64,000 nt of DNA from an uncultured Caryophanales bacterium (GTDB lineage: Bacteria > Bacillota_I > Bacilli_A > RFN20 > CAG-826), in NCBI GenBank assembly GCA_946407815.1, contig CAMJPB010000001.1, positions 186,001 through 250,000 on the forward strand, read 5' to 3'. Under the pieces are notes generated by a model. That model did not search any database. It had not been told where the DNA came from and was given only the letters and a program-made list of their open reading frames with translations. Below, piece after piece: positions 1,672-41,224 of this stretch. A program made the position numbers and the translations under genes. Every line of letters begins with the position of its first letter. Position 1 is the stretch's first letter.

Positions 1672-3415
1672 GTCTAAATTAGTCGGCGATGTTAAGCTTC
1701 CTGTAAAAGTCATCTTGAAGCGAACTTTTAAATATTTAAAACCATACACAGGTCGTCTTTTAGTTGCGATCTTACTTATCGTCTTAAGTGTTGCTTTAGA
1801 TATTCTTGTTCCACTTATTTACCGTGATATCATTGATAACCTTAATTCGTCAAATATTGTTCTTAAAGTTTTATTTGGTGGAATTGCGGTTTATTTATCA
1901 TGCTTTGTGATATCACAAGGTATCAGATTTATTGAGACAAAAATTCTTCAAAAAGTCGGAAATAATGTTGTTTATCAGATGCGACTTGAGACATTTGAGC
2001 ACATCGAAAAAATGTCTCTTGATCAATTTGAAGTTTTACCTGTTGGTTCATTAACTACTCGAGTTTGTAACTACACATCACATATCAGTGATTTGTACAC
2101 AAATCAGTTAGCCAATTTATTTAGAAATGTAATGTCTGTTGTTGGTGTTTACGCAGTCATGATTTTTATTTCTCCAACACTTGCTTTAATCGTTTTAGGA
2201 ATTGCCTCAGTTGTTATTGTTGGTTCATTCTTCTTTAGAAAACGTATCGCAAGACTTCATAGACTTGAAAAAGGTTATTTATCTGACCTTAACACAACAC
2301 TATCTGAAGATCTTAACGGTATGAAAGTTATTCAATTATTTAATAGAGAAGAAAGCGCTCGTGAGGATTTTAGAAAAAGAAACAGCATTTACCGTAAGAA
2401 TAGATTTAAAATTATGGGTACTTTCTCATTCCATAGACCATTTGTCATTCTTGCTCAATACATCGGAACAGCTCTTTTGTTCTTCCTATCTGCAAAACTT
2501 GCATTAACTGCCGGATCAGTTGTCGTTTTCGCCTGGTTCTTGGAGAAATTCTTTGAGCCAATTCAACAAATTTCTGACCAGTTATTGCACATTGAAAGAG
2601 CTCTTACTTCCTCTGAAAGATTATTCAATTTACTTGATGTTCAACCAAAGGTTGTTGATAAAGAAGATGCAAGAGAAATTACTCACTTTGACGGCAAGAT
2701 TGAGTTTAGAAATGTCTGGTTTAGTTATGATGATAAAAACTGGGTTTTGAAGGACGTTAGTTTTGTTGTTGAAAAAGGCCAAACATTTGCTCTTGTTGGG
2801 GCAACTGGCGCCGGAAAAACGACAATTTTCTCGCTCTTAACGAAAGCCTACAAACCGCAAAAAGGTCAAATTTTGATTGATGACGTCGATATTAACGACA
2901 TTAAAGTCAGTTCAATTAGGGCTGCAATCGGTCAAATGTTACAGGACGTTTTCCTATTCTCTGGAACGATTAAATCGAACATCACATTGTTTGATGACAA
3001 GTTTAGCGATGACGAAATCAAGTCTGCTTGTGATTATGTAAATGCAAGCTACTTTATTGACAAACTTCCAAACAAATATGAAGAAAAAGTGGTGGAGCGC
3101 GGCGAGAACTTCTCGCAAGGACAAAGACAATTAATGTCTTTCGCTCGTACAATTTTGCATAAACCACAGATTTTATTGCTCGATGAAGCGACCGCAAATA
3201 TCGACACAGAAACCGAGGCTGTTATTCAAGATTCATTAAACAAAATGGCATCACTTGGAACAATGTTAGTTGTCGCTCATAGACTCTCAACAATTCAAAA
3301 AGCTGATCAAATTTTGTGTCTGCAAAATGGCGAGGTTATCGAAAAAGGCACTCATAACGAACTTTTGAAGAACAGAAGCTACTATTACAAGCTCTATAAA
3401 CTACAATTTAAATAG
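1658..3415 (+). CDS. ABC exporter half-transporter, catalytic subunit
   Basis: Partner of the preceding half-transporter, 585 residues with a six-helix membrane domain and a C-terminal ATPase domain. Walker A is at about 380-388 (GATGAGKTT), Walker B has the catalytic Glu (LLLDEATANID, about 505-515) and the H-loop His is present (VVAHRLST). The signature motif near 485 is FSQGQ rather than LSGGQ. In heterodimeric exporters this altered signature faces the degenerate ATP site of the partner, while this subunit's Walker B and H-loop complete the active site. An AAGGAGG ribosome-binding site inside the upstream gene supports the start. Substrate cannot be deduced. Confidence 0.93.
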   Translation: MQDNKSKLVGDVKLPVKVILKRTFKYLKPYTGRLLVAILLIVLSVALDILVPLIYRDIIDNLNSSNIVLKVLFGGIAVYLSCFVISQGIRFIETKILQKVGNNVVYQMRLETFEHIEKMSLDQFEVLPVGSLTTRVCNYTSHISDLYTNQLANLFRNVMSVVGVYAVMIFISPTLALIVLGIASVVIVGSFFFRKRIARLHRLEKGYLSDLNTTLSEDLNGMKVIQLFNREESAREDFRKRNSIYRKNRFKIMGTFSFHRPFVILAQYIGTALLFFLSAKLALTAGSVVVFAWFLEKFFEPIQQISDQLLHIERALTSSERLFNLLDVQPKVVDKEDAREITHFDGKIEFRNVWFSYDDKNWVLKDVSFVVEKGQTFALVGATGAGKTTIFSLLTKAYKPQKGQILIDDVDINDIKVSSIRAAIGQMLQDVFLFSGTIKSNITLFDDKFSDDEIKSACDYVNASYFIDKLPNKYEEKVVERGENFSQGQRQLMSFARTILHKPQILLLDEATANIDTETEAVIQDSLNKMASLGTMLVVAHRLSTIQKADQILCLQNGEVIEKGTHNELLKNRSYYYKLYKLQFK

Positions 3416-21677: not shown

Positions 21678-21702
21678 AAAAAGGCACTATGTGCCTTTTT
21701 AT
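21677..21702. terminator. Bidirectional terminator between mnmA and the ABC transporter operon
   Basis: AAGGCAC (21681-21687) and GTGCCTT (21691-21697) around a TAT loop, with an A-run on the left and a T-run on the right, so it can stop transcription from both converging sides. Confidence 0.85.
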
Positions 21703-22796
21703 TTATCGAATAATGACTTATCAGCTTCATCGAAGAACTTAAGTAAGTCTGATGCAGTTAATTTTGCCTTCTCTTCTTTTGAGAAATCATGAATTATGTG
21801 TCCACTGTGGAACATAATTAATCTATCCCCATACATTAATGCATCTCTCATGTTATGAGTAACCATTAATGTGGTTAAGTGTTTCTCACGAACAATTCTA
21901 TTTGTGAGCTCTAAGACTTTCTTTGCTGTCTTAGGATCTAACGCAGCGGTGTGCTCATCAAGAAGAAGAATTCTTCTATCTTGGTTGAAGTTATGGAGTG
22001 CATTTGAGAAATCTAAATAGATTTCTAATAATTTCTCCTCTTCTTCATCTTTTTTAAGCTTTAAATTCTTAATTTCGTTAGTTTTATTGATGAAGATTTG
22101 CTTTTGCTCGTCATAGAACTTACCAGAAATTGCAATTGCCTCTTTTTTGAACTCTTTAAGCTCTTTCTTTAGGGAAGAAACAAGTTCTTTATTCTTATCA
22201 AGAGTTGCCTGATTAATCTTTGACCTAAGTTCACCTGAGCGAACATTATAGTACATATCAATAAACTCTTTACGAGTGTCAAGTCTAGAATCGGTAGCCG
22301 CCATTAACAAAGTTAATGCTTGACGTTGTCCACCTGACATAACACCTACTTTTTGCGACATTCTATCTTCTAGACCAAGTTGAAATTCTTGTAGTAACTT
22401 CTTGTAATAAAGTTGAATAACTGAATTAGAAAAGCCCCATTTAATTGGAGAATGTTGTTTACCTCTTCTAAAGGCAATTTCAAGATTCTCTAGGCAAGAC
22501 ATTTCACCTGTTGTTCCGACCATAGGATCTTGGAAAACACGGCCAAAATATTTTGCTCTTTCGTATTCTTTCATCTTGGTAATGTCCATACCTGAAAGCA
22601 CTACATGACCTGAATCAGGTTGAATTGAACCTGAAATAACGTTCATTGTAGTAGATTTACCAGAGCCATTACCGCCGATAATTGTGACGAATTCTCCATC
22701 ATTAATCGTTAAATTAATGTTGTTTAAAGCAATACGTCTATCTTCGATAGCGCCAGTTAGGTTGAAAACTTTTGTAACATTTTTAAATTGAATCAT
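21699..22796 (-). CDS. TrpXYZ-type ABC transporter ATPase with a large inserted charged helix region
   Basis: 365 residues; such ATPases usually have about 250-260. Walker A is GGNGSGKST (41-49), the Q-loop is around VFQDP (87-91), the signature is SGGQ (154-157), Walker B is ILLLDE (276-281) with the family segment HTAALDPKTA, and the H-loop is VTHNMRDAL. Normally about 20 residues separate signature and Walker B; here about 105 extra residues (168-273) rich in Lys, Glu and Leu intervene, probably helical or coiled-coil. All catalytic motifs remain. The start overlaps the permease gene by 14 bp. The family is predicted to energise import of tryptophan or related compounds. Confidence 0.9.
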   Translation of the reverse strand: MIQFKNVTKVFNLTGAIEDRRIALNNINLTINDGEFVTIIGGNGSGKSTTMNVISGSIQPDSGHVVLSGMDITKMKEYERAKYFGRVFQDPMVGTTGEMSCLENLEIAFRRGKQHSPIKWGFSNSVIQLYYKKLLQEFQLGLEDRMSQKVGVMSGGQRQALTLLMAATDSRLDTRKEFIDMYYNVRSGELRSKINQATLDKNKELVSSLKKELKEFKKEAIAISGKFYDEQKQIFINKTNEIKNLKLKKDEEEEKLLEIYLDFSNALHNFNQDRRILLLDEHTAALDPKTAKKVLELTNRIVREKHLTTLMVTHNMRDALMYGDRLIMFHSGHIIHDFSKEEKAKLTASDLLKFFDEADKSLFDK

Positions 22797-23763
22797 TTGT
22801 TTCAGCCTTCTTCTTTTTCAGATTACGCACTAATTCTTTAATAATAGGAATACATAATGCAATTGTAATAAGAATCGCATAGAGTAAGCTCTTCAACTGT
22901 GTTGGGAAACCAAGTCTAGTCGCGATTGTAATGATAATAAAGTAGAAAATTGAGCCCATTGCGACTGCAATTAACCAAATCTTGAATGAACGTTTACCAA
23001 AGATTGCCTCGCCAATTAAAATTGCGGCTAATCCGATAACTAAATATCCTGTCGCCGAGATGGTGGAAACAGTCTTTGCTTCTTGAACATAAAGTGAGCC
23101 ACCAAGAGCAATTAAAGCATTTGCTACGCAAACGCAAGTAATGGTCGCAATATCAACGTTAATTCCTTGTGATTTTGCCATCTTTTCGTTCATGCCAGTT
23201 GCTCTAATTGCCATGCCATATTCTGTTCCAAAGAAGAAGTAAATAATAAACATTGCAAGTAAAACAACAACTAACATAACGGCAACTTTAATAACATCAC
23301 CCCAAGGATTTACAACAATGTAGCGATTAACGCTTTCAATGTATTTCCAAGGATAGAAAAGAGTGTAAATTGTCTGGGTTTGTCCGCCTGGTTGAATGTC
23401 TGTAAATGAAACTTGTGAGGCAAATGTAGTGCCATTTGCAAAGCCCATAATTAACATTGCAATTGAGGCGGATGCAGTTAAGGTAATGATACCTGATAGT
23501 AACTTAGGTATCTTAAGATACCTATTAAGAATGCCAGTGATCATTCCGCACATAAAACCAGCAATAACAGAGATAAATGTAGCTAACCAAGGATTAACGC
23601 CTTTAACGACCAGTGCGGCCGTAACAGCGGCTCCTATCAGAAAACTACCCTCTGCAGTTAAATCAGCGAAGTCAAGTAAACGATACGTAAGGAAAATACC
23701 AAGTGCTAATAAGACACATGGAAGTCCGCTAGAAAGTATGTTTAATATAACGTCTAAAAACAT
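22783..23763 (-). CDS. TrpXYZ-type ABC transporter permease
   Basis: 326 residues with eight or more hydrophobic segments, of the BPD_transp_2 (LivH-like) fold. Typical segments are LLDFADLTAEGSFLIGAAV near the N-terminus and GTEYGMAIRATGMNEKMAKSQGI (split at MAI/RAT) in the middle, the conserved cytoplasmic loop that contacts the ATPase. It starts 10 bp after the binding-protein gene and overlaps the ATPase gene, so the three form one operon. Substrate by family: tryptophan, tyrosine or similar; not proven here. Confidence 0.92.
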   Translation of the reverse strand: MFLDVILNILSSGLPCVLLALGIFLTYRLLDFADLTAEGSFLIGAAVTAALVVKGVNPWLATFISVIAGFMCGMITGILNRYLKIPKLLSGIITLTASASIAMLIMGFANGTTFASQVSFTDIQPGGQTQTIYTLFYPWKYIESVNRYIVVNPWGDVIKVAVMLVVVLLAMFIIYFFFGTEYGMAIRATGMNEKMAKSQGINVDIATITCVCVANALIALGGSLYVQEAKTVSTISATGYLVIGLAAILIGEAIFGKRSFKIWLIAVAMGSIFYFIIITIATRLGFPTQLKSLLYAILITIALCIPIIKELVRNLKKKKAETNDSI

Positions 23764-23773
23764 TTTTAACTAT

Positions 23774-24766
23774 TTATGCAGCAGTTACATCCCTTGATTT
23801 GTTAAGAACTGATTCAGGAAGAGTAATGCCTGAACCTGCTAAATTTGCGGAAGAATAGACATATTCACATTCTTCTTTACTCATTGTACCAACTGGAATT
23901 TCACCAGGTTGTTTTTCGCCTTTAAGGATTTGTGCAGCCATTTGTCCGGTTCTTTTTCCTAATTCGCGGTAATTAATAGAAAGTGTAACGTGACCACCTG
24001 ATTGGCACATACCTTCTTCACCTGTAATGATAAGAATGCCTTTGGCATTAGCTTCTTGTTTAACTGCGTTTGTATTAGCAGCAATATTGTTGTCTGTTGG
24101 AATATAAATTGCATCTAAACCATCAACTGCACATAATGCACCTGCGGCTGTAGAAATATCAGAAGGACCTGTACATGTTTCTTGAACAACTGTAAGTCCT
24201 AAAGCTTCAGCTGCTGCCTTAGCTTGAGTAGCCTGAACAACTGAGTTTGTTTCACTTTGAGTGTAAATAATGCCGATTTTATCAGCTGCTGGTAAACATT
24301 CTTTAAGAAGTTCAATTTGAGCTTGAATTGGTTGGGCATCACTTGTACCTGTGACAAAGCCGCTGCCGTTTGCAATAGATGAGACAAGTCTTTCACCTAC
24401 TGGATCAGTAACAGCAGTGAATAAGACTGGATTGGTGGAACCTTTATCAATAGAAGCACTTAAAAGTGCTTTGGAAGCACCTGTACCAACGCCTAATGTC
24501 ATTTTGGACTCTGCGACTAATGTCTTTGAGTAGGCAACAATGTCAGCATCTTTTCCACCTGCGTTCATGAGTTTGATGGTGAAATCTTTACCCTTTACTA
24601 AGCCAGATTCTTCTAAACCGGCGACAAAACCATCAGCAGCTGCTTGAAGTGCAACGTGCTCAACTGGCATTAAAATGCCAATTTGGTTCTTTGTTGAATT
24701 ACATCCAGTGAATAATGTTGCGGTTACTGGAAGTAAAAATATAGTTTTAATGAGATTTCTTTTCAT
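23774..24766 (-). CDS. TrpX-type ABC transporter substrate-binding lipoprotein
   Basis: 330 residues. The signal peptide has lipobox FTGC with the acylated Cys at residue 22. The mature protein is a type I periplasmic-binding fold of the ABC_sub_bind (DUF534/TrpX) family: IGILMPVEHVALQAAADGF at the start, TAVTDPVGERLV in the middle and IIYTQSETNSV beginning the second lobe. It would capture the substrate outside the cell and hand it to the permease. The GGAGAAAG ribosome-binding site is good. It is the first gene of the operon, preceded by a structured leader, and diverges from the HTH-TrpB gene. Confidence 0.9.
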   Translation of the reverse strand: MKRNLIKTIFLLPVTATLFTGCNSTKNQIGILMPVEHVALQAAADGFVAGLEESGLVKGKDFTIKLMNAGGKDADIVAYSKTLVAESKMTLGVGTGASKALLSASIDKGSTNPVLFTAVTDPVGERLVSSIANGSGFVTGTSDAQPIQAQIELLKECLPAADKIGIIYTQSETNSVVQATQAKAAAEALGLTVVQETCTGPSDISTAAGALCAVDGLDAIYIPTDNNIAANTNAVKQEANAKGILIITGEEGMCQSGGHVTLSINYRELGKRTGQMAAQILKGEKQPGEIPVGTMSKEECEYVYSSANLAGSGITLPESVLNKSRDVTAA

Positions 24767-24962
24767 GTTTCTTTCTCCTTTTCAAAAAATAAATCCCGGG
24801 AGCAAACACCGGGTTATTTTTATTTCCAGGTGTTTGACTAAGTCTCCCACCTGCATTTTTAAAGTAGGAAACAATTACCTAAAATAAAAATAGCAATAAG
24901 AAAAATAGGAATTTGAGCTAGAAATAATCGCAAAATTTCTGTTCATAACCTTTTTCTCTCTT
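24767..24962 (-). promoter_or_regulatory. Structured leader with candidate transcription attenuator (orphan riboswitch?)
   Basis: Minus-strand leader of about 195 nt before the TrpX-type gene. Hairpin 1 pairs CAGGTG with CACCTG (plus-strand 24848-24853 and 24827-24832). Hairpin 2 pairs CCCGG with CCGGG (24809-24813 and 24795-24799) and is followed by a T-rich run (24785-24794), like an intrinsic terminator. CAAACACC on the 3' side of hairpin 1 is perfectly complementary to GGTGTTTG in hairpin 2 (24829-24836 and 24803-24810), so pairing them breaks both. This is attenuator logic. No T-box TGGNACCGCG sequence, no Trp-rich leader peptide and no riboswitch class I recognise is present. The rest of this 343-bp gene-free interval holds the two divergent promoters. 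Confidence 0.6.
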
Positions 24963-24968
24963 GCAATA

Positions 24969-24996
24969 ATATTATGCCAAAATAGGGATAATGCAA
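24969..24996 (-). promoter_or_regulatory. Candidate promoter of the TrpX-type transporter operon
   Basis: On the minus strand: TTGCAT (24991-24996), 16-bp spacer, TAATAT (24969-24974). It would start the transcript near 24962, giving the long leader described above. Confidence 0.5.
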
Positions 24997-25109: not shown

Positions 25110-26510
25110 ATGTATATTTCAGTTAAAGAAGCCGCCCAAAAATGGGGGATTAACGAACGTCGTGTTCGTCTTTTATGCCAAGAAAACCGTATTGAAGGTT
25201 TAAGCAAAAAGGGTAAAGTTTATCTTATCCCAGATAACGCTCCAAAACCTTTAGATAGACGCGGAAAAACTGGCCCAATTAAATTAAATAATAATAAGGA
25301 TATAGACTTTGCAACGTATCGCAAAGAATACCCAAATGAAGATGGTTATTTTGGTCCTTATGGTGGTTCATTTGTAGATGAAAAAACAAAGAAAACTTTC
25401 CAAGAAATCTATAATGGCTATTTAACCATCTGTAAGTCCGCAAAATTCATCGCCGAATTACGTCAAATTAGACATGATTTCCAAGGTAGACCAACACCTG
25501 TTTATCATTGTGAACGTTTGTCCAATTATTTAGGCAAAGTTCAGATCTATATTAAACGTGAAGACCTCAATCATATGGGCTCACATAAACTTAATAACTG
25601 TATGGGACAAGCTCTGCTTGCTAAAACTTTAGGCAAGAAAAAACTTATCGCCGAAACTGGTGCAGGAAGCCATGGTTCAGCCGTTGCAACAGCTGCTGCA
25701 TATTTCGGTTTAAAATGTGATATTTACATGGGCGAAGTCGACATGATGAAGCAAGCTCCTAACGTGAATAGAATGAAGATTCTAGGAGCTAACGTTATCC
25801 CTGTAAAAGAAGGCACTAGAACCTTAAAAGAAGCAGTCGATGCAGCCTTAACAGCCTACCTAAAAGAACAAAAAGATGCGTTCTATTTAATGGGCTCCGC
25901 AGTCGGCCCTCATCCTTACCCATTAATCGTTCGTGAATTCCAAGAAATTATTGGTCGAGAAGCACGTGAACAATTCCAAGAAATGACTGGCGAATTACCA
26001 GACATTGTTTGTGCTTGTGTTGGTGGCGGAAGTAACGCTATCGGTATGTTTGAAGCATTCTTAAATGATCCTGTTCAAATCGTTGGAGTCGAGCCAATGG
26101 GTGAAGGAAAGGAAATTGGCAAAAATGCCGCAAGTATGACTTTCGGTAAGGAATATGTTCTTCACGGATTTAAGTCAAAGGTACTCTTAAATAAAGATGG
26201 AAGTGTTGCAAACGCCTATTCAATTGCATCTGGCTTAGATTACCCAGGTGTAGGTCCAGAACACGCATTCTTACACGATATTGGTCGCGTACAATACGAA
26301 ACTGTTACAGATGAAGAAGCGCTTGAAGCATTCATGCTTCTCTCAAGATTAGAAGGCATTATTCCTGCCATTGAATCATCTCACGCTTTAGCATATGCAA
26401 TTCGCATCGCTCGTACACGCCATTCTGGTTCGGTCTTAGTTAACCTAAGTGGTAGAGGTGACAAAGACTTAGAGTACATAATGAAAAAATACCCTGACCT
26501 ACTTAAATAA
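25110..26510 (+). CDS. Tryptophan synthase beta chain with N-terminal helix-turn-helix domain
   Basis: 466 residues against about 395-400 for normal TrpB. Residues 1-50 form an excisionase/MerR-like helix-turn-helix (start [20 protein letters not shown], then RIEG and [14 protein letters not shown]), then a basic linker to about 75. TrpB proper starts at [10 protein letters not shown] (79-88). PLP lysine is Lys160 in GSHKLNN, catalytic Glu is Glu182 in AETGAGSHG, the phosphate site is GGGSNAIG and the pyridine-nitrogen Ser is in LSGRGDKD, so it should be active. No in-frame ATG occurs between residues 2 and 155, so the fusion is real unless a non-ATG start is used. No trpA or other trp gene is in the window. 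It probably condenses indole and serine and may bind DNA. Confidence 0.93.
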
Positions 26511-27793: not shown

Positions 27794-30241
27794 ATGAAAA
27801 AGTCGGTATTTAAATTAATAGTCACCTCACTTTGTGCCGCGGCATTAAGCGGATGTTCTTTTCTTGGCTTTGGAGACGATAATAATGAAGCCCTAGGTTT
27901 AGACCTAAGAGATTACAAAACCGCCGCTGTGAAAGATTCCAAATACGAGTATTCTGGAAAAGTCTTCTTAAGGTTTGAAGACAAAGCCGATGTTGAGGTT
28001 ACCGAGAAGTGTACATATAGTACATTAGATACTTCTAAGCTCGGTAAGCAACCTTTTAAAGTTTCATTCGAAGCTAGTGCGGTTATTTTTTCAAAAACCG
28101 TTTACATTAATGTCGTTGAATCACTTTCTTTAAAAGACCTTGTAGTTGAAGGTTACACAGAAAAAGTGAAAGCTGGCGAAAGTTATTCTTTCGATGGCAA
28201 AGTTTATGCTGTTTATGATGATAATTCACGAAAAGATGTTACAAGTTCAGCCGTTTTCTCAAGTGTTGATACTTCATCTTCTGGAAAAAAGGAAATAACA
28301 GTTTCCTATACAGAAGCAAAAGTGACTAAGAAAGCTACATTCTCAATCGACGTTTTTGCAGAATTAGTCGGAATTTCTGTTTCTGGTTATTCGTCAAACT
28401 TCAATCCTGGTTCAGATTATATCTTTAACGGAAAAGTTGTCGCTAAGTATAGCGATAATTCAACTGTTGATGTAACTGAAAAAGCTGAAATTGATGCAAG
28501 TAAAGTTGATACTTCTAATGAAGGTTCTTATGAAGTGGTTGTTAGCTATACAGAAGGCGATTTAACTGTAAAACAAACAATTACAATCAAAGTCGCTGAA
28601 AAAATCAAAGAACTCCTGAAAATTGAGGCTTCTGGTTACACAAAGACCGTTAATAAGCTTGAAAAATACGTTTTTGACGGTGTTGTTATTGCAACTTATG
28701 ACGACGGAACAACTGCTGATGTTACCAAAGATAACAACTGTGAAATTCCTGAATTAAGTACTCAAACAACAGGTAAAAAGAGCCTAACAATCTCTTATAG
28801 TGAGACAACTGATGGTAGCACCATCACTAAGAAATATATAATCAGTGATATTGAAGTTATCGCAAGAGTTACTGGTATTGTCGTTCCTGACACCTTAAAT
28901 GTAACTTTAGGCAAGAGTAAATCTCTTTCATACACAGTTCAACCAACTGATGCTAAGAACAAGAATGTCACATTCTCAAGTAGCAATACAGGTGTTGCAA
29001 CAGTCGATAAAAATGGACTTGTCACTGGTGTGGCAAACGGTAATGCAACAATCACTGTAACAGCCGAAGATAACGGAATTAGCTCATCTACAGAGGTTAC
29101 AGTTTCTGCCGAATCTAAAGATGAATGGACAATTCTTCTTTATATGTGTGGTGCTGACTTAGAGAGCGATTCTAATGCTAGACTTGCTACTGCTGACTTA
29201 AAAGAAATCTTAACAGTTGCCGGTCAACCAGAAGACGTTAACTTTGTTATTGAAACCGGTGGTGCTAAGTCATGGGCTTCTACTTATGGCATTTCTTCAA
29301 GTAAACTTGAAAGATACCACGTAAGTAACAAATCTTTGGTTAGAGATGCTCAATTAAGCTATGCTTCAATGGGTTTATCTTCTACATTACAAAGCTTCTT
29401 AGAATACGGATTAACTAATTATCCTGCCGAAAAAACTGGTGTTATTTTCTGGAATCATGGTGGTGGAATGAGTGGCGTTTGTTTCGATGAAAAGAAGAAT
29501 GATGATTCACTTCTTAACACCGAAATTCAAAGTGCTGTCAAAAATGCTTTAGCAAATACTGGCCACACAGGTGAAAAATTAGAATTCATCGGTTATGATG
29601 CTTGCTTAATGCAAGTTCAAGATATTGCAATTGGAAATGCGCCATATTTCAACTATATGATTGCTTCTGAAGAATCAGAAGCCGGCGAAGGTTGGGATTA
29701 TGATACATGGGTTGACGATTTATACGCTAAAAAGACAACCCCAGAAATCTTAAAAGCTTGTGTTGATGGCTTTATCTTGGATAACGGTGGAACCTCTTCC
29801 TCAAGTAATGACCAAACTCTTTCCTACCTTGATTTATCAAAAGCTGATGAATACAAAGCTGCTTGGGAAGATATGGCTGTTGCCTTAAAATCCAAGATTA
29901 CTTCTAGCAACAAGAGTTCATTCAAAACACTTGTAAAATCTGCAAAAAGATACGCTGTTGATGGCTATAGTAGTGACTTATATTACGGCTTAGTTGACGC
30001 AAAAGACTTTGTTAATAAATTAGCATCAAATTCAACCTTTAAACCTGATGCAAGTTATACAAATGCTGTTTTTACAGCACATTCTAACTTTGTTAAATAT
30101 TCTAGCAAAGGAAAAGGCGCTGGAAATTCATATGGTCTTTGTATGTATTGGGGCCTAGATAGCGACGCAAAATCTTACTACTCATCAACATACACAACCT
30201 TATCAAATTGGCTCTATTTAGTTAACAACTTCGGTTATTAA
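27794..30241 (+). CDS. Clostripain-like (C11) cysteine protease, lipoprotein with Ig-like repeats (copy 1)
   Basis: 815 residues. The lipobox is LSGC with acylated Cys at residue 21. Then come about four Big_3-like repeats (35-355), each with a FDGKVxAxYxDxSxxDVT strand pair, and one Big_2 domain (about 362-440, with FSSSNTGVATVDKNGLVTG). The C-terminal C11 peptidase domain starts at DEWTILLYMCGADLES (about 444); the catalytic His is His555 in WNHGGG and the catalytic Cys is Cys604 in YDACLMQ. C11 enzymes cleave after Arg or Lys. It is anchored outside the cell and the repeats act as a stalk. It is the first of three tandem paralogues, each with its own signals. Confidence 0.92.
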   Translation: MKKSVFKLIVTSLCAAALSGCSFLGFGDDNNEALGLDLRDYKTAAVKDSKYEYSGKVFLRFEDKADVEVTEKCTYSTLDTSKLGKQPFKVSFEASAVIFSKTVYINVVESLSLKDLVVEGYTEKVKAGESYSFDGKVYAVYDDNSRKDVTSSAVFSSVDTSSSGKKEITVSYTEAKVTKKATFSIDVFAELVGISVSGYSSNFNPGSDYIFNGKVVAKYSDNSTVDVTEKAEIDASKVDTSNEGSYEVVVSYTEGDLTVKQTITIKVAEKIKELLKIEASGYTKTVNKLEKYVFDGVVIATYDDGTTADVTKDNNCEIPELSTQTTGKKSLTISYSETTDGSTITKKYIISDIEVIARVTGIVVPDTLNVTLGKSKSLSYTVQPTDAKNKNVTFSSSNTGVATVDKNGLVTGVANGNATITVTAEDNGISSSTEVTVSAESKDEWTILLYMCGADLESDSNARLATADLKEILTVAGQPEDVNFVIETGGAKSWASTYGISSSKLERYHVSNKSLVRDAQLSYASMGLSSTLQSFLEYGLTNYPAEKTGVIFWNHGGGMSGVCFDEKKNDDSLLNTEIQSAVKNALANTGHTGEKLEFIGYDACLMQVQDIAIGNAPYFNYMIASEESEAGEGWDYDTWVDDLYAKKTTPEILKACVDGFILDNGGTSSSSNDQTLSYLDLSKADEYKAAWEDMAVALKSKITSSNKSSFKTLVKSAKRYAVDGYSSDLYYGLVDAKDFVNKLASNSTFKPDASYTNAVFTAHSNFVKYSSKGKGAGNSYGLCMYWGLDSDAKSYYSSTYTTLSNWLYLVNNFGY

Positions 30242-32856: not shown

Positions 32857-32884
32857 TATAAAAATTTAAGTTGGTAGGTTGTTT

Positions 32885-35800
32885 ATGAAAAGAAAAGTCG
32901 GTATATTCTCTGCAATTGCATTATCAGGTTCAGGCCTTTTAGCAATTGCCTTATCAAGCACTGGTGTTACTGGTAATTTATTCGTATTCCGAAGTGAAGC
33001 TGATTTAAGTTATACATTAACACTAAGTAACTCAAACAAATATGATGGAAATGCAACGCAATATATTTATAACGATAACAACAATTACGCTGTTCAATTC
33101 TCATATTCTGGTTGCACAACTAATCAATCAGGGCACGTTACTTTAAATGCTAATGGCACCCTAAAAAATGATCAACAGATTACATCTGTGTCAGCCATTT
33201 ATCCTGTCTTTACAGCTTCAAATGGTGCATCTTTAAAGTTTAGAGCATCTTATAATGGCACAAAATGGGGTGAATATTCTGTCTTAACATCTGAAAAAAC
33301 TTTTGATCTTGCCGCTACTAATCCTTATTTTATTGAATTAAAGGCTGATGGTGGATCAATAAACCTTACCAGTTTACGTTATACATATACCTGTGCAGCA
33401 AATCCTGCTGCTGCTTCTGGTGAAGAAGAATGGCAAATCGTAACTGATGAAAAAGATTTAGCAGTTGGTGATCAAGTTGTAATAGCCGCTGCAGAAAGTG
33501 ATGTGAGTTACGCCTTATCCACAACACAAAATTCAAATAATATAAGTGCAGTTTCAATTACAAAAGATAACGAAAAAGGAACTATTATAATAAATAATAG
33601 TGTTCAAGTTTTAACTTTAGAGGAAGGTTCATCAGATGATCTTTTCGCATTTAATACTGGAGATGGTTACTTAAAAGCATGCTCTTCTGGCAGTAATTAT
33701 TTGCGCACCGAAACAGATATAACCGCTGATTCAAGCTTTAGAATTAAAATTAGCGATGAACAAGAGACCTTAAATTATGCTACTGTAGACGCTAGAGATT
33801 CCTCGTATACACGAGATACTATCCGTTATAACCCAAATAATGGAAGCCCTATTTTTTCTTGTTATTCTTCAACAAGTACTAATACAAAACCAATTTCAAT
33901 TTATAAAAAGACTGCTTCTATCAATACACCTGCATATGAAACTGGTTTAACTGTCGAAGACGCCAAAGGAGAAGCAGGGACATATATTGTTACTGAAAAT
34001 TTTGATTCGTTCGTAGAAAATGGTGGTTTAACTGTCACTGCAATGATGTCAGATGGATCTTCGAAAAAGCTTTCAAAATCTGAGTACTCATACAAAATGA
34101 CATATGGAGGAGTTGAACAAGATCCAACTCAAAAATTCCAACACGCTGGTGAATACTCTGTAAGTATTAGTTACAAATCACTCATTCCAAACGTTTACAC
34201 AATCAATGTTGCAAATGTTGTAACTAGTGTTACTGCAACGAAGGAAACAACTTCATATCATGTCAATGACAACATTGTTTTGAATGATATAACGGCTGTT
34301 AAGAATTATGCAGTCGATGGTTCATCAAGTAGTATTGCATATAGCAATTTCTCTGCAAACGGCCTTAGCTTAGAGCTTAGAAATCCAAATAATCAACTCG
34401 TTACAAGCGGAACATTTAATGTTGCTGGAAATTGGACTGCAAAGGTTTATTTAACTGCGAATTCTGAGATTTCTAGCAGCATTACAATCTCAGTTACTGC
34501 TATTCCGGTTTCTTCTATTTCATTAAATACAGGTTCGGTAACTGTTTATGTTGGTGGTAGTAGCGAAACATTAACTGCAACAGTTTTACCTAACAACGCA
34601 ACAGATAAGACTGTTATTTGGTCTATTATTAATGATAATCCTAAAGGATGCTTATCTATTTCAAACGGAACAATTACAGGTTATTCTGCTGGTACCGCAA
34701 CAGTAGTTGCTACTGCGGGAGATAAACAAGCAACATGTAATGTTACAATCTCAACTATTGCTGTTACTGGTGTATCATTGAACAAGGATTCTTTAACCAT
34801 CTCTGCTGGCAAAACTGAAACACTAAGTGCAACTATTTCACCTGCAAACGCCTCAAATACTGCGGTTAATTGGACATCAACTAACACTAACATCGCAACT
34901 GTTAATGCTAATGGTGTTGTTACAGCCGTTGCACCTGGTACCGCAACAATTACTGTCACAACTGTTGATGGAGAAAAGACTACATCATGTAGCGTAACAG
35001 TAACAAAGATTGGAGTTACTTCAGTTACATTAAGTAAATCATCATTAGATTTATATGTCGGTGGAAGTGATGCAACCTTAACAGCTACTGTTCTTCCAAA
35101 TGATGCGACATATAAAACCGTTACATGGTCATCTAATAAATCGAACATTGCCACTGTTACTAATGGCGTTGTTCATCCAGTTGGAGTTGGAACTGCTGTT
35201 ATATCAGCAAGTGCTGATGGAGTTAGTGCAAACTGTACTGTTAATGTTGCTGCTTCTGCTCCTGAATGGATAAAGGTCACTGATGAAAATGATCTTAGTG
35301 CAGGAGATAAAGTTATTATTGGTGATGAAAACGCTAATGTAACTGCAACTAATATAAGTGGCACATATTTAGGAAAAGTTACATCGACATTCTCTGATCA
35401 AAAAGTTACTACTTTAGGTAGTGGAACAATTGAATTTACTTTAGGCGGAGAATCCGGTGCATGGACATTTATTAACGGAGATAGTGAATTAGGCGCAACA
35501 TCAACCAAAACTTTATGTTGGGACGATGGAACAACTACATGGGATATTTCCATAAGTGATGGTGACGCAACAATTTGGAGTACAACTGAATCATATGGAA
35601 GAATTTTGTATAATTCTTCAAGTCCAAGATTTACAAACTATGGTTCATCAACAAATGTTAGTGGTAGTATGCGTTTACCAGAATTATATAGACTTGAAAC
35701 AGCTGCTGTTGTTCCTGATAATCCAGTTTCTTCAATTAATTTGTCAACAACTGGTAATGTAACGAATTTATTTGCTGGTGAAACATTAACAATTAATAAA

Positions 35801-38362
35801 GAAGTTTTACCTGCAAACGCTGATAACAAGAATGTCACTTGGTCTTCAAGCGATACAAGTATCGCGACAGTTAGCCAATCTGGCGTTGTAACTGGCGTTT
35901 CTAGTGGAAGCGTAACAATAACTGCTACAGCTAAAGATGGAAGCGGCACTAAAGGAACTATTAACCTAACAGTCAACGCAAAATTAGATAGCATTGAAGT
36001 TTCCAACGAAAAGACATCGTATAAAGTCGGAGATAATTTCGTTAAACCAACAGTAACTGCCTCCTATATTGGTGGTAGCGATAAAGATGTTACAAATTCC
36101 GCAACATTTAACGGATTTAGCTCTGCTAGTGCTGGAAATTGTACTATTACTGTTTCATATACAGAAAATGGTGTTACAAAATCTACCTCATATGAAGTTA
36201 CAATCACAAATTCTGCTACACCTCAAAGCGAAAATTTCCAAATTACCTTTGCTACAGCTTCAACTGATAGCAGTAGTGAATATGGATCAGGAAGTGTTTC
36301 CGCAACTATTTTAAGTGCTGGTTCAAGTTATGTTAGCAGTTATTCCTGCAGCAAAGCTTATAAAGGAACAAGCGGAATAAAATTAGGGTCAAGTAAGTCT
36401 AGCGGTTATGTTTCATTAAACTTTTCAAGCACAATTACTTCAGTAAATGTAACTTCTATTTCTTACACCATTGCTCAATATAGTTCTGATTCGAAAAATA
36501 CATCTTTATATGTAAATGGTGGATCTAGCGCTGTTAGTACAACAAGTAATGGAAATGTCTACACTTATACATTATCAAGTCCTACATCAATAAGCAGTCT
36601 CAAGATTTCTTCACAAGCACGTGTTTATATTGTTGGAATTACTATTTCTACTCAAGCAGCTACACCAGTTGATGTTACAAGTATTTCGTTAAATCAAAGT
36701 GCAATAAATATGACCTCAGGTGAAACCTATCCATTAGTAGTTTCATATAATCCTAGTGGAGCAAATACAAATACAGGTATTACTTGGACAAGTAGCAATT
36801 CAAGTGTTGCTGAAGTTTCAAGTACAGGTGTCGTAAGTGCAAAATCTCAAGGTTATGCAACAATTACTGCAACAACCGAAAATAATAAGTCAGATACATG
36901 TACTGTCACAGTAACAAGCACACCTGTCACAAGTGTTTCTATTAATGAAGATGCCCTTGAGATGAAATCTAGTAGCACAAAACAATTATCAGCTACTGTT
37001 TTACCTTATAATGCATCAAACAAAAATGTCACCTGGAGCTCTTCAAATACTAGTGTTGCTACTGTAAGTAGCACTGGATTGGTATCTACCAAGAATGTTT
37101 CAAGTGGTTCTGCTACTATCACCGTAACAACTGCAGATGGTGGTCATACTGATACATGTAATGTAACAATTAATACTTCTTTAGCAAAATGGACAGTTTT
37201 AATGTATGTTTGTGGTGCTGATCTTGAATCTGATTATGCAGATGATAACGACGGATGCGCAACCGATGATTTAAGAGAAATTGCATCAGTTTCAGGACAA
37301 CCAAGTGATGTTAACGTGGTTGTTCAAGCTGGTGGTGCTAGTAAATGGTCCTCAGAATATTCTTCTGTAATTAATAAAGATAAGGCTAATAGATTCCATT
37401 TGAAAAATAAGAGTTTTGTTAAAGACGAACAAATTAATAAAGCTAATATGGGCCTGCAATCAACACTACAAAGTTTCTTAGCGTGGGGATTTGATGCTTA
37501 TCCAGCTGAAAATACTGCGATTATATTCTGGGATCATGGCGGTGCCATGGAAGGTTGTTGTTATGATGAACAATATGGAGACGATTCATTACTTTCATCT
37601 GAAATAACAGCCGCCATCAAAGGCGCGAGAAATACCGCTAATGAAAAGAACCTCTTAGAATTCGTCGGATACGACTGTTGCTTAATGCAAGTTCAAGATA
37701 TTGCCGGATTAAATTCTCAATATGCAAAATATCAAGTTGCTTCAGAGGAATCAGAATGGGGCTATGGTTGGTCATACGATAAATGGATTGATGATTTATT
37801 TAATAAGAGAACTACTCCAAATATCTTAAAAGCTTGTGTTGATGGTTTTGCCACTGATACAACAACTGCATATCAAAATTGGGGTGATCCAAACGATCAA
37901 ACACTATCATATTTGAACTTATCTTATTGGGGTGAATATGAGTATTATTGGGAATCTATGGCTTCCTCATTGCAGAGTATCATAACTTCATCTTCAAAAT
38001 GGACCACATATAAAAATTTAGTTAACTCTTGTCAAAAATATGGTTCTGGAAGTGGAAATGCATACAATAACGGTTATAGATTTGACGTATTTGATGCAGG
38101 TGATTACTTTAGTAAGATTTCGCAAAGTAGCACTTATAATTCAAACACAGAGCTCATGTCTTCAATTGGAAACTTACAGACTGTACATTCAAAGCTTGTT
38201 GAATATGAATGGCATGGTAGTGCTGCTGGGAATTCTACTGGCTTAACATTCTTCTGTCCAATTGGCGGGTATAATAGCAAGTCAGTTCAATATGCTACAG
38301 GCTGTACTCCATTTACTAACTGGCGTAACTTAGTTGTGTCTTACGGTAAGTGGTCCTCATAA
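32885..38362 (+). CDS. Giant secreted C11 protease with many Ig-like repeats (copy 3)
   Basis: 1825 residues from the ATG at 32885; a TTG at 32879 is in frame, but the ATG gives a normal signal peptide (MKRKVGIFSAIALSGSG...). There is no lipobox and no sortase motif, so how it is held is unclear. After a long N-terminal region come at least six Big_2 domains (examples near 560, 640, 725, 960, 1285, 1365) and Big_3-like segments. Two YHR-like stretches start with EWxxVTDExDLxxGDxVxI (about 185 and 795). The C-terminal C11 domain (about 1435 on) has His1551 in WDHGG and Cys1599 in YDCCLMQ. HGGA replaces the usual HGGG. Confidence 0.9.
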   Translation: MKRKVGIFSAIALSGSGLLAIALSSTGVTGNLFVFRSEADLSYTLTLSNSNKYDGNATQYIYNDNNNYAVQFSYSGCTTNQSGHVTLNANGTLKNDQQITSVSAIYPVFTASNGASLKFRASYNGTKWGEYSVLTSEKTFDLAATNPYFIELKADGGSINLTSLRYTYTCAANPAAASGEEEWQIVTDEKDLAVGDQVVIAAAESDVSYALSTTQNSNNISAVSITKDNEKGTIIINNSVQVLTLEEGSSDDLFAFNTGDGYLKACSSGSNYLRTETDITADSSFRIKISDEQETLNYATVDARDSSYTRDTIRYNPNNGSPIFSCYSSTSTNTKPISIYKKTASINTPAYETGLTVEDAKGEAGTYIVTENFDSFVENGGLTVTAMMSDGSSKKLSKSEYSYKMTYGGVEQDPTQKFQHAGEYSVSISYKSLIPNVYTINVANVVTSVTATKETTSYHVNDNIVLNDITAVKNYAVDGSSSSIAYSNFSANGLSLELRNPNNQLVTSGTFNVAGNWTAKVYLTANSEISSSITISVTAIPVSSISLNTGSVTVYVGGSSETLTATVLPNNATDKTVIWSIINDNPKGCLSISNGTITGYSAGTATVVATAGDKQATCNVTISTIAVTGVSLNKDSLTISAGKTETLSATISPANASNTAVNWTSTNTNIATVNANGVVTAVAPGTATITVTTVDGEKTTSCSVTVTKIGVTSVTLSKSSLDLYVGGSDATLTATVLPNDATYKTVTWSSNKSNIATVTNGVVHPVGVGTAVISASADGVSANCTVNVAASAPEWIKVTDENDLSAGDKVIIGDENANVTATNISGTYLGKVTSTFSDQKVTTLGSGTIEFTLGGESGAWTFINGDSELGATSTKTLCWDDGTTTWDISISDGDATIWSTTESYGRILYNSSSPRFTNYGSSTNVSGSMRLPELYRLETAAVVPDNPVSSINLSTTGNVTNLFAGETLTINKEVLPANADNKNVTWSSSDTSIATVSQSGVVTGVSSGSVTITATAKDGSGTKGTINLTVNAKLDSIEVSNEKTSYKVGDNFVKPTVTASYIGGSDKDVTNSATFNGFSSASAGNCTITVSYTENGVTKSTSYEVTITNSATPQSENFQITFATASTDSSSEYGSGSVSATILSAGSSYVSSYSCSKAYKGTSGIKLGSSKSSGYVSLNFSSTITSVNVTSISYTIAQYSSDSKNTSLYVNGGSSAVSTTSNGNVYTYTLSSPTSISSLKISSQARVYIVGITISTQAATPVDVTSISLNQSAINMTSGETYPLVVSYNPSGANTNTGITWTSSNSSVAEVSSTGVVSAKSQGYATITATTENNKSDTCTVTVTSTPVTSVSINEDALEMKSSSTKQLSATVLPYNASNKNVTWSSSNTSVATVSSTGLVSTKNVSSGSATITVTTADGGHTDTCNVTINTSLAKWTVLMYVCGADLESDYADDNDGCATDDLREIASVSGQPSDVNVVVQAGGASKWSSEYSSVINKDKANRFHLKNKSFVKDEQINKANMGLQSTLQSFLAWGFDAYPAENTAIIFWDHGGAMEGCCYDEQYGDDSLLSSEITAAIKGARNTANEKNLLEFVGYDCCLMQVQDIAGLNSQYAKYQVASEESEWGYGWSYDKWIDDLFNKRTTPNILKACVDGFATDTTTAYQNWGDPNDQTLSYLNLSYWGEYEYYWESMASSLQSIITSSSKWTTYKNLVNSCQKYGSGSGNAYNNGYRFDVFDAGDYFSKISQSSTYNSNTELMSSIGNLQTVHSKLVEYEWHGSAAGNSTGLTFFCPIGGYNSKSVQYATGCTPFTNWRNLVVSYGKWSS

Positions 38363-38440: not shown

Positions 38441-38446
38441 TTATTC

Positions 38447-38600
38447 ACTCCCACAAAGGAAATTATATGCCACTCCTTTGGAGTCGATGAAAGTCGACGT
38501 AGTTCTGCGTTAAAGACAATTAATTAAGTGCAATACGAAGTATTGAATTAGGATGGTACCGCGTTAAAGACGTTCCTAATTGATACTTTTTTATTTTGTT
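38447..38600 (+). promoter_or_regulatory. T-box leader of alaS
   Basis: The T-box sequence TGGTACCGCG is at 38554-38563, inside a hairpin whose arms AATTAGGA (38546-38553) and TCCTAATT (38574-38581) precede a T-run, the terminator form. Upstream hairpins (CTCC/GGAG near 38473-38483, GTCGA/TCGAC near 38483-38498, CAATAC/GTATTG near 38531-38545) would make up Stem I and the linker. Uncharged tRNA-Ala should stabilise the antiterminator. The Ala specifier codon could not be assigned with certainty; GCC near 38469 and GCG near 38507 are candidates. Confidence 0.88.
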
Positions 38601-38614
38601 TAGGAGGCCGAAAA

Positions 38615-41224
38615 ATGAAGTATTTAACTGGTCAAGAAATTAGAGAAACATGGTTAAAGTTCTTTGAATCAAAAGGACACCACATTGAAAAAGGCGCAAA
38701 TTTAATACCTTACAATGATCCAACTCTTTTATGGATTAACTCTGGTGTTGCTGCCCTTAAAAAGTACATGGATGGTAGTGAAGTACCACCAAATCGTAGA
38801 ATTACAAACGTTCAAAAATCGATTCGTACAAACGACATCGAAAACGTTGGTTTTACTGCTAGACACCAAACATTATTCGAAATGTTGGGTAATTTCTCTA
38901 TCGGTGATTATTTCAAAAAAGAAGTAGTCGCTTGGGCCTATGAAATCTTAACTAATGAGAAATATTTTGGCATGCCTAAAGAGAATCTTTACTTTACTTA
39001 TAACCCAGCAGATGAAGAAACTCATAAGCTTTGGTTAGAACAAGGTGTTGAAGAATCTCATTTAATCCCACTAGAAGGAAACTATTGGGAAATTGGAGCT
39101 GGTCCAGCTGGCCCAAATACTGAAGTCTTTTTTGATAGAGGTGAAAAGTACGATCCTGAGCATTTAGGAGAACGTCTACTTAGAGAAGAAATCGAAAATG
39201 ACCGTTATATTGAAATTTGGGGCATTGTTTTCAGCCAATTCAACGCTGTTCCAGGCACTCCACGAAGTGAATACAAAGAATTGCCTTCCAAAAACATCGA
39301 TACAGGCGCAGGATTAGAGCGAATTGCCTCTGTCTTACAAGGAACCGACACCAACTTTGAAACCGACTTATTTGAGCCTATTATCAAAGCAGTCGAAAAA
39401 ATCGCTAAAGTTCCTTATAAGGCACCAAACCAAATTCCATATAGAGTTATTGCCGACCACATTCGTGCAGTTACTTTTGCTATTGGTGATGGTGAAATGT
39501 TCTCAAATGAAGGACGTGGCTACGTTTTACGTAGACTTGTTCGTAGAGCAATGAGATTTGCAAAGAAGATCGGTATTGAAAAACCATTTATGTACACTCT
39601 TGTACCAGTGGTTATTGAAAAATATAAAGATTTCTACCCAGAATACGTCTCAAAAGAAGCTCACATTGTCAAAATGTTAAAGGCTGAAGAAGAGAAATTT
39701 ATTCTTACACTTTCTAGCGGCGAAGCTTTGCTTCGTGAAATGATTGAAGGTAAGAAAAAACTTTCTGGAAAAGACGCCTTTAAGCTTTACGACACATTTG
39801 GTTTCCCACTTGATTTAACAAAAGATATTTGTAAAGAAAGCGACGTTGAAGTTGATGAAAATGGCTTCAATGTTGAAATGGAAAAGCAAAAGGAGCGCGC
39901 TAGAAACGCTCGTAGCGATGAACAAAGCATGCACAAACAGTCTAAGGACTTATTAGACTTTAAAGAGCCTTCAAACTTCTTCTATGAAGAAACCCCTCTT
40001 GATGCCAAGGTTATTGGTGTCTTTAAAGACGGTGTTAAAGTCGATTCAATTGAAGATGAAGGCGAAATTATATTAGATCAAACTAATTTCTACGCCGAAA
40101 GCGGCGGTGAAATTGCTGATACCGGTAAAATGAGCGGAGAAGGCAAAGAACTCGAGGTTTTAAGCGTTCAAAAAGCTCCAAATAAGCAAAATCTTCACTT
40201 TGTGAAGGTTCTTAATGGGTCAGTTAAAGTCGGAGATACACTCCATCTTGAATTAGACGTTGAAAAACGTGAACTTATTAAGAGAAATCACTCTGCTACT
40301 CACTTACTTCAAGCTGCTTTAGACAAAGTATTAGGCGGAGAACACATTAAGCAGATGGGTTCATACGTTTGTGACGATTATATGAGATTTGACTTCACTC
40401 ATTACGAGAAGATTTCTGCTGAACAACTCAAAGAAGTTGAACAAGAAGTTAATAATATGATTGCTAAAGCAATCCCATCAGATATTCGCATTATGAAGAA
40501 GGATGAGGCTTCTAAATTAGGAGCAAAAGCATTCTTCTCCGAAAAATACGGAGATGAAGTTAGAGTTGTTCGCTTCGGCGAAGAATCAATGGAATTCTGT
40601 GGTGGTTGTCACGTCAAAAATACATCAGATATCGGCGTTTTTGTTATTGAATCTGAATCTTCAGTAGCAGCTGGTGTCCGTCGTATTCAAGGAAGAACCT
40701 CCTTAGGAGGTTATAAACTCCTTAAAGAAAGAGAAGACGCATTAATGGAAGTTTGTAAATCAATTGGTTGTAACTCTCCAAAAGAAGCGCTCGCAAAAAC
40801 GAAAGATTTACTCGCTAAATTAAACGAAATGAGCAAGACTTTAGAATCAATGAAAGACAAACTTTCTCACCAAAATGCTAATGAAGTTTTGAAAGATTTT
40901 GAAGAATTCAAAGGTTACAAATTACTTTGCAAACATTTCCCAAATCAATCAATGGATAACATTAACTCAATTGGTGATGAATTAAAGGTGAAATTCCCTG
41001 ACTACATTTTATTCTTAGTTGGTGGATGTGACGGAGAACTTCCAATCGCCATTTTCGTCGGCGGAAAAGCCCTCGAAAGTAACAAGGCTGGTGACTTAGT
41101 AAGAGAAGTCGCAAAAGTCCTTGGAGGTGGCGGCGGAGGTCGTCCAAATATGGCCAACGGTAAAGGCCGTTTACTTGCTAAACTTGATGAAGCAACAACA
41201 ACCTTAAAAGGACTTATTAAATGA
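38615..41224 (+). CDS. alaS: Alanyl-tRNA synthetase
   Basis: 869 residues, full length. Class II catalytic core at the N-terminus (ETWLKFFESKGH, then TARHQTLFEMLGNFSIGDYFK split at GNF/SIG), an editing domain with the zinc ligands HSATH (about 558-562) and CGGCH (about 661-665), and a C-Ala domain with GGGGGGRP near 846. It charges tRNA-Ala and clears mischarged Ser and Gly. Controlled by the T-box leader. An AGGAGG ribosome-binding site supports the start. Its stop overlaps ruvX by 4 bp. Confidence 0.98.
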   Translation: MKYLTGQEIRETWLKFFESKGHHIEKGANLIPYNDPTLLWINSGVAALKKYMDGSEVPPNRRITNVQKSIRTNDIENVGFTARHQTLFEMLGNFSIGDYFKKEVVAWAYEILTNEKYFGMPKENLYFTYNPADEETHKLWLEQGVEESHLIPLEGNYWEIGAGPAGPNTEVFFDRGEKYDPEHLGERLLREEIENDRYIEIWGIVFSQFNAVPGTPRSEYKELPSKNIDTGAGLERIASVLQGTDTNFETDLFEPIIKAVEKIAKVPYKAPNQIPYRVIADHIRAVTFAIGDGEMFSNEGRGYVLRRLVRRAMRFAKKIGIEKPFMYTLVPVVIEKYKDFYPEYVSKEAHIVKMLKAEEEKFILTLSSGEALLREMIEGKKKLSGKDAFKLYDTFGFPLDLTKDICKESDVEVDENGFNVEMEKQKERARNARSDEQSMHKQSKDLLDFKEPSNFFYEETPLDAKVIGVFKDGVKVDSIEDEGEIILDQTNFYAESGGEIADTGKMSGEGKELEVLSVQKAPNKQNLHFVKVLNGSVKVGDTLHLELDVEKRELIKRNHSATHLLQAALDKVLGGEHIKQMGSYVCDDYMRFDFTHYEKISAEQLKEVEQEVNNMIAKAIPSDIRIMKKDEASKLGAKAFFSEKYGDEVRVVRFGEESMEFCGGCHVKNTSDIGVFVIESESSVAAGVRRIQGRTSLGGYKLLKEREDALMEVCKSIGCNSPKEALAKTKDLLAKLNEMSKTLESMKDKLSHQNANEVLKDFEEFKGYKLLCKHFPNQSMDNINSIGDELKVKFPDYILFLVGGCDGELPIAIFVGGKALESNKAGDLVREVAKVLGGGGGGRPNMANGKGRLLAKLDEATTTLKGLIK

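Follow-up and report, generated by a model that had tools for sequence, protein, structure and literature searches.

The leader at 24767-24962 of the window (the whole 64,000-nucleotide stretch analysed here) lies on the minus strand, and a domain search places a three-gene ABC importer operon directly 3' of it (Table 1). The question is what this leader senses and by what means. The original prediction took it for an orphan attenuator or riboswitch candidate with a sensor of a kind other than the T-box. The structural elements on which that was based are in place on the minus strand: a first hairpin (CAGGTG 24853-24848 with CACCTG 24832-24827), a second GC-rich hairpin (CCCGG 24813-24809 with CCGGG 24799-24795) followed by ATTTATTTTTT, and an 8-base complementarity (CAAACACC 24836-24829 with GGTGTTTG 24810-24803) that joins both hairpins. 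A length of about 195 nt is plausible because of the promoter-like element listed in Table 1, and of 200 dinucleotide shuffles, 197 fold less well than the 196-nt leader (z -2.56). The absence of a T-box also held up: the Rfam model search of the window returned neither a T-box nor any other family at its threshold, and around the leader there was nothing meaningful even at E up to 10. As modelled below, the leader is very probably a ribosome-mediated transcription attenuator that senses the charging of tRNA-Tyr and probably also of tRNA-Phe. The sensor is almost certainly a ribosome that translates a leader peptide rich in Tyr and Phe.

Table 1. Features of the importer operon and its leader in the window.
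Feature	Coordinates	Strand	Basis or remark
TrpX-type substrate-binding lipoprotein	23774..24766	-	PF04392, 208.7 bits
ABC permease	22783..23763	-	PF02653
ABC ATPase	21699..22796	-	PF00005
Promoter-like TTGCAT-16 nt-TAATAT	24969..24996	-	read from sequence; consensus match only
Leader peptide ORF MNRNFAIISSSNSYFSYCYFYFR	24875..24946	-	ATG at 24946; Shine-Dalgarno weak (GAGAG / AAGG close to ATG)
Tyr/Phe codon run, codons 14-22 (Y F S Y C Y F Y F), proposed stall sites	24881..24907	-	
UAUUUUUAUUUUAGGU within leader ORF	24877..24892	-	predicted without ribosome to pair with 24815-24831, terminator staying free
Segment A, GUUUCCUACUU	24862..24872	-	begins 3 nt past stop codon; partner B
Segment B, AGGUGGGAGAC	24842..24852	-	partner A, or (as CAGGUG 24848-24853) C
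Segment C, CAAACACCUG	24827..24836	-	CACCUG with B; CAAACACC with D (antiterminator)
Segment D, CCCGGUGUUUG	24803..24813	-	terminator 5' arm; also partner of C
Segment E (CCGGG 24795-24799) and U-tract, intrinsic terminator	24784..24799	-	
Shine-Dalgarno AAGGAG of transporter gene	24775..24780	-	read from sequence

The leader peptide was correctly described in the original prediction as having no Trp, but its load of Tyr and Phe codons was missed. There are four Tyr and four Phe in 23 codons, the densest stretch has six aromatic residues in eight, and the ORF stops just 5' of the first pairing segment. That density was matched by 14 of 3000 shuffles of the window leader, and among the 34 window genes of at least 200 aa, such an ORF precedes the transporter gene only (next best, four in eight). 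Relatives of the binding protein were gathered at the genus, order and class level. An ATG ORF of 10-45 codons in which Tyr and Phe are densely clustered is present at 80 of the 103 homologous transporter loci of the order, with runs such as FNFYFYYYYM, YFYFYYFYFR, YYYYYYYY and GFYYYYYYYR. The same arrangement recurs in several families of the class beyond the order (QFYIYYYYYF in L125, RYYYYYYYF in L126, VYYYYYY in L157 and NYYYYYYSKK in L175), and the leader is accordingly no orphan. The order leaders comprise 68 distinct peptides with 3-9 Tyr and 0-5 Phe in each. Since at least three Tyr are present in all 68 while Phe is missing from two, Tyr is the constant residue; both amino acids are encoded by both their codons. 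Seven or more aromatic residues in eight occur in 57 of the 68 real leaders and in none of 3400 composition-matched shuffles. This is the short, translated-looking ORF enriched in sensed codons that characterizes a leader-peptide attenuator, and the terminator that belongs between such an ORF and its gene is found in 79 of the 80 order leaders, the one with no recognised terminator being L066.

The five segments in the window can form two competing sets of helices. When the stall is at the last Tyr codon, the minimum-energy fold contains A:B and C:D; with the ribosome at the stop codon, it contains B:C and D:E; and without a ribosome, the terminator forms again in the full-length fold. In the mechanism we propose, scarcity of Tyr or Phe would cause the leading ribosome to stall on the Tyr/Phe codons and leave segment A, just behind the stop codon, free. 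A would then pair with B, and C would capture D as the antiterminator, allowing the importer operon to be transcribed. When Tyr and Phe are plentiful, the ribosome would reach the stop codon, and its footprint would cover A. Since A would be masked there, B:C and the terminator D:E could form, and transcription would presumably terminate in vivo. If there were no translation at all, the codon run would pair with the C region, and the terminator would form in that case too. Three points about the window itself count against the attenuator: the Shine-Dalgarno of the leader ORF is weak, the minimum-energy fold retains the terminator if the ribosome stalls at the first Tyr codon, and the probability that D is captured before E has been synthesised goes only from 0.80 to 0.76. 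Since the capture measure shifts so little there, the case for a switch in the window is built on the full-length folds and on the relatives.

For the relatives, each leader was folded with everything 5' of a moving point blocked, as by a ribosome. Segment D is complementary to the upstream C beyond shuffles (p<=0.05) in 59 of 78 order leaders. Averaged over the leaders, C's capture of D is high at upstream ribosome positions and minimal where the first free base is roughly +10 to +13 relative to the stop codon, which in this model corresponds to the footprint of a ribosome sitting on the stop codon. At that same position, terminator formation is predicted to peak locally. Capture of D is greater at the stall than at the stop in 75 of 79 order leaders; counted by unique peptide, it is so in 64 of 67, whereas shuffled controls give this result in 52% of cases. 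Of 32 leaders from other families of the class, 25 were positive in the test, the other seven having no stall/stop difference in the expected direction. In these folding calculations, then, the choice of structure is set by whether the ribosome is at the stall or at the stop codon.

All the helices covary. For the 12 leaders of the window's own group, none of the 500 shuffles and none of the slid controls reaches the covariation score of either the on-state or the off-state helices. The on-state helices of a second group, of 31 leaders, likewise outscore every one of the 500 shuffles and every slide; the off-state helices there are the weakest of the set, with one slide scoring higher. Absence of covariation in homologous leaders had been named in advance as evidence against an attenuator, and it did not occur; the mutually exclusive antiterminator and terminator pairings are conserved with covariation, if less strongly in the off state of the second group.

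A metabolite-binding riboswitch for Tyr, Phe, Trp, indole or something else might control the terminator, with the ORF being incidental, and the related trpB motif was ranked as a strong riboswitch candidate by its authors (PMC11109978). A riboswitch should have a conserved ligand-binding core, but no sequence-constant core exists across the groups. There is no conserved aptamer-like sequence, the helix sequences vary freely from group to group, the sole constant feature is the Tyr/Phe-rich reading frame, and the switch point matches a ribosome at the stop codon. We regard a riboswitch as unlikely in the extreme, and the idea of a sensor of another kind is replaced by a leader peptide read by the ribosome. 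Also very unlikely is an arrest of the TnaC type, in which the nascent peptide would bind free Tyr or Phe in the ribosome and codon starvation would play no part. One group of leaders, ending in PRGNQ, does have a well-conserved peptide C-terminus, as such an arrest would predict, but the conserved PRGNQ codons double as base-pairing sequence. Arrest peptides usually need a fixed sequence, whereas the run length, order and flanks of these leaders vary widely (YYYYYYYY, YFYFYYFYF, GFYYYFSYYY).

There is practically no chance, in our estimation, that the regulator is a T-box or a protein-dependent attenuator and the aromatic ORF a by-product of AT-rich sequence. The T-box model (RF00230) has no match at the Rfam threshold in the window and none in 20 Tyr-leader loci, and composition-matched shuffles never reached seven aromatic residues in eight. 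In its favour, genomes of this genus mostly have 4-5 T-boxes each, and several paralogues of the transporter gene carry a T-box instead. The paralogue T-boxes are over the Rfam threshold in L083, L102, L103, L106, L107, L168 and L183 and below it in L075, L089, L090 and L108; a Trp specifier can be read in some of them, by eye only. The window also has a compact (~140 nt) T-box at 38441-38580 (+), scoring 56.7 bits (below the Rfam cut-off of 93), directly before alaS (38615-41224), and similar short sub-threshold matches are found in most genomes of the genus.

The type of regulation tracks the protein tree, with 5 changes of the T-box character versus 20 expected, where the T-box assignment of some loci is based solely on the GGTGGNAY motif. 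The genus paralogues L017-L019, L021, L022 and L024-L027 have no leader. Tandem paralogues can differ in their leader codons, as in L175, where YYYYYY stands beside FNFFFFYF (L175b). Similarly, beside the YYYYRY leader of L016 is one that reads INWWR and has a terminator of its own (L029), and the leader of L172 is FFFFFR. A scan of viral contigs with transporter proteins or leader patterns gave nothing useful.

The Tyr/Phe attenuator shares with the classical leader-peptide attenuators (E. coli trp, his and pheA; His leaders) a short ORF rich in the sensed codons and a mutually exclusive antiterminator and terminator set by ribosome position. It differs from them in its Tyr/Phe codons, its target, an ABC importer, its five pairing segments, and its occurrence in Bacilli, where T-boxes usually do such sensing. 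Within the Firmicutes, leader-peptide attenuators are already known for His, including His leaders in Erysipelotrichales and Bacillus (PMC9413887) and one for hisS paralogues in Bacilli (PMC2965389). For Phe, one has been proposed: uORFC-13-1, with 24 representatives, before aroF in Acholeplasma (PMC8632094), a low-GC Gram-positive relative. Like the window leader, it has a Phe-containing uORF and a terminator, but its target is a biosynthetic gene and no Tyr run is described. The trpXYZ operon of Streptococcus suis, which has a Trp-specific T-box (PMC9382623), belongs to the same transporter family and follows the same logic of tRNA charging and terminator control; there, however, the RNA binds the tRNA directly, the specifier is Trp, and there is no leader peptide. 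In the open-licence literature, our search turned up no Tyr/Phe leader for the TrpX-type transporter family. What appears to be new here is the Tyr/Phe variant and the reinterpretation of two Rfam families, RF04312 and RF02863. A match to a known class was the other finding named in advance as contrary to the original prediction; the window has none, but some of its relatives match these two families.

RF04312 (trpB motif, SRC-39-1), a family of >900 members that lie mostly 5' of an uncharacterised amino-acid ABC transporter, was put forward in 2024 as a strong candidate for a riboswitch; no leader ORF was described, and the authors could not exclude a classic attenuator (PMC11109978). It resembles the window device in having a P1 and a terminator, with the antiterminator in the right shoulder of P1. 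The codons are Trp rather than Tyr/Phe, and the model does not match the window, which is absent among matches to E 10 (threshold 59 bits) and was rejected as a member. No genome of the genus has an over-threshold match. Since searches of the class and of two smaller groups also gave zero over-threshold members, only three RF04312 leaders were examined. L204 (69.8 bits) has the leader MTQLSNVKEMHQSWQNWRR directly upstream, and L332 of Fusobacterium vincentii (68.5 bits) has MKQILTTTMRYWQNWHR, both with two Trp codons and a strong Shine-Dalgarno; L205, at a sub-threshold 48.9 bits, has MNLSKRISAENKKNWRSWRR. In all three, the Trp-Trp leader ORF is ~20 nt 5' of the motif, and D capture drops with the ribosome at the stop codon. 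Since L204 and L332 are both of the over-threshold members found, the trpB motif looks like a Trp version of the same leader-peptide device, judging from the sequences of these three loci. No transporter gene was seen directly 3' of the motif in L332. Sub-threshold matches in L192, L194 and L195, which lack a leader ORF, were rejected as chance terminators. The unverified 'phage' records OR846587, OR848665 and OR846821 (L204-L206) contain operons for TrpX-type transporters and seem to be DNA of bacterial hosts, and the 2.1-Mb 'plasmid' NZ_CP084075 (L332) looks like a Fusobacterium chromosome.

RF02863 (Enterococcus sRNA 2410) is catalogued as a small RNA and does not match the window either, but like the window it has a TrpX-type gene 3' and a Phe/Tyr leader peptide (ending F/Y-F-S-Y-F-R before the stop). 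The model starts within the leader codons, where UUAGCUACUUUAGAUAG spans S-Y-F-R-stop. The window was rejected as a member, not reaching 61 bits; the only relatives that do are L163, a class relative with a leader ending in SYFFSYFR (76 bits, with RF04312 below threshold), L206 (215 bits, leader MRTNINQIAPTQLNNFYFSYFR) and L202 of Enterococcus gallinarum (89.5 bits, leader MKLLLSPQLNIAYFSYFR). A quick D-capture test of L206 and L202 gave no stall/stop difference, the terminator picked there being uncertain. Two more class genomes, L187 and L188, have a sub-threshold sRNA_2410-like element at ~1470-1650 (+) with the Tyr leaders MNSNLTTRFYYSYYC and MNSTLTNLYDYSYYC, before a BrnQ-type transporter gene. 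Since a Tyr leader precedes it, this gene may import an aromatic amino acid. Another sRNA_2410-like match (38.8 bits) is at 1501-1701 (+) in L189, before an SNF-family sodium symporter gene, with no clear leader ORF visible.

It is likely, then, that importers of the TrpX type and others, throughout Bacilli and Fusobacteria, are under the control of a superfamily of Tyr, Phe and Trp leader-peptide attenuators, to which the trpB motif would belong as the Trp version and sRNA 2410 as the Tyr/Phe version. Since tandem paralogous transporters differ in their leader codons, the leader in this reading would report the substrate of each transporter, and the Tyr, Phe and Trp versions would provide a sequence readout of specificity. 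The family is usually labelled as a tryptophan/tyrosine transporter; if the attenuator reads the charging of tRNA-Tyr (with Phe), the 'TrpX-type' transporter of the window's group is predicted to be a Tyr/Phe importer. An orphan riboswitch guess is thus exchanged for a testable mechanism, leader-peptide attenuation appears frequent in a lineage for which T-boxes would be expected, and a concrete answer is offered to the open classification of the trpB motif.

Divergent from the transporter operon, at 25110-26510 (+), is a gene for a TrpB-like PLP enzyme whose N-terminus weakly matches a helix-turn-helix. In sister genomes, the leaderless paralogues have the same HTH-type gene start divergent to them. 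Farther along the window (27794-30241 and 32879-38362, both +), two secreted proteins of very large size are encoded; both have bacterial Ig-like repeats, and their C-terminal domains are similar and appear clostripain-like by eye.
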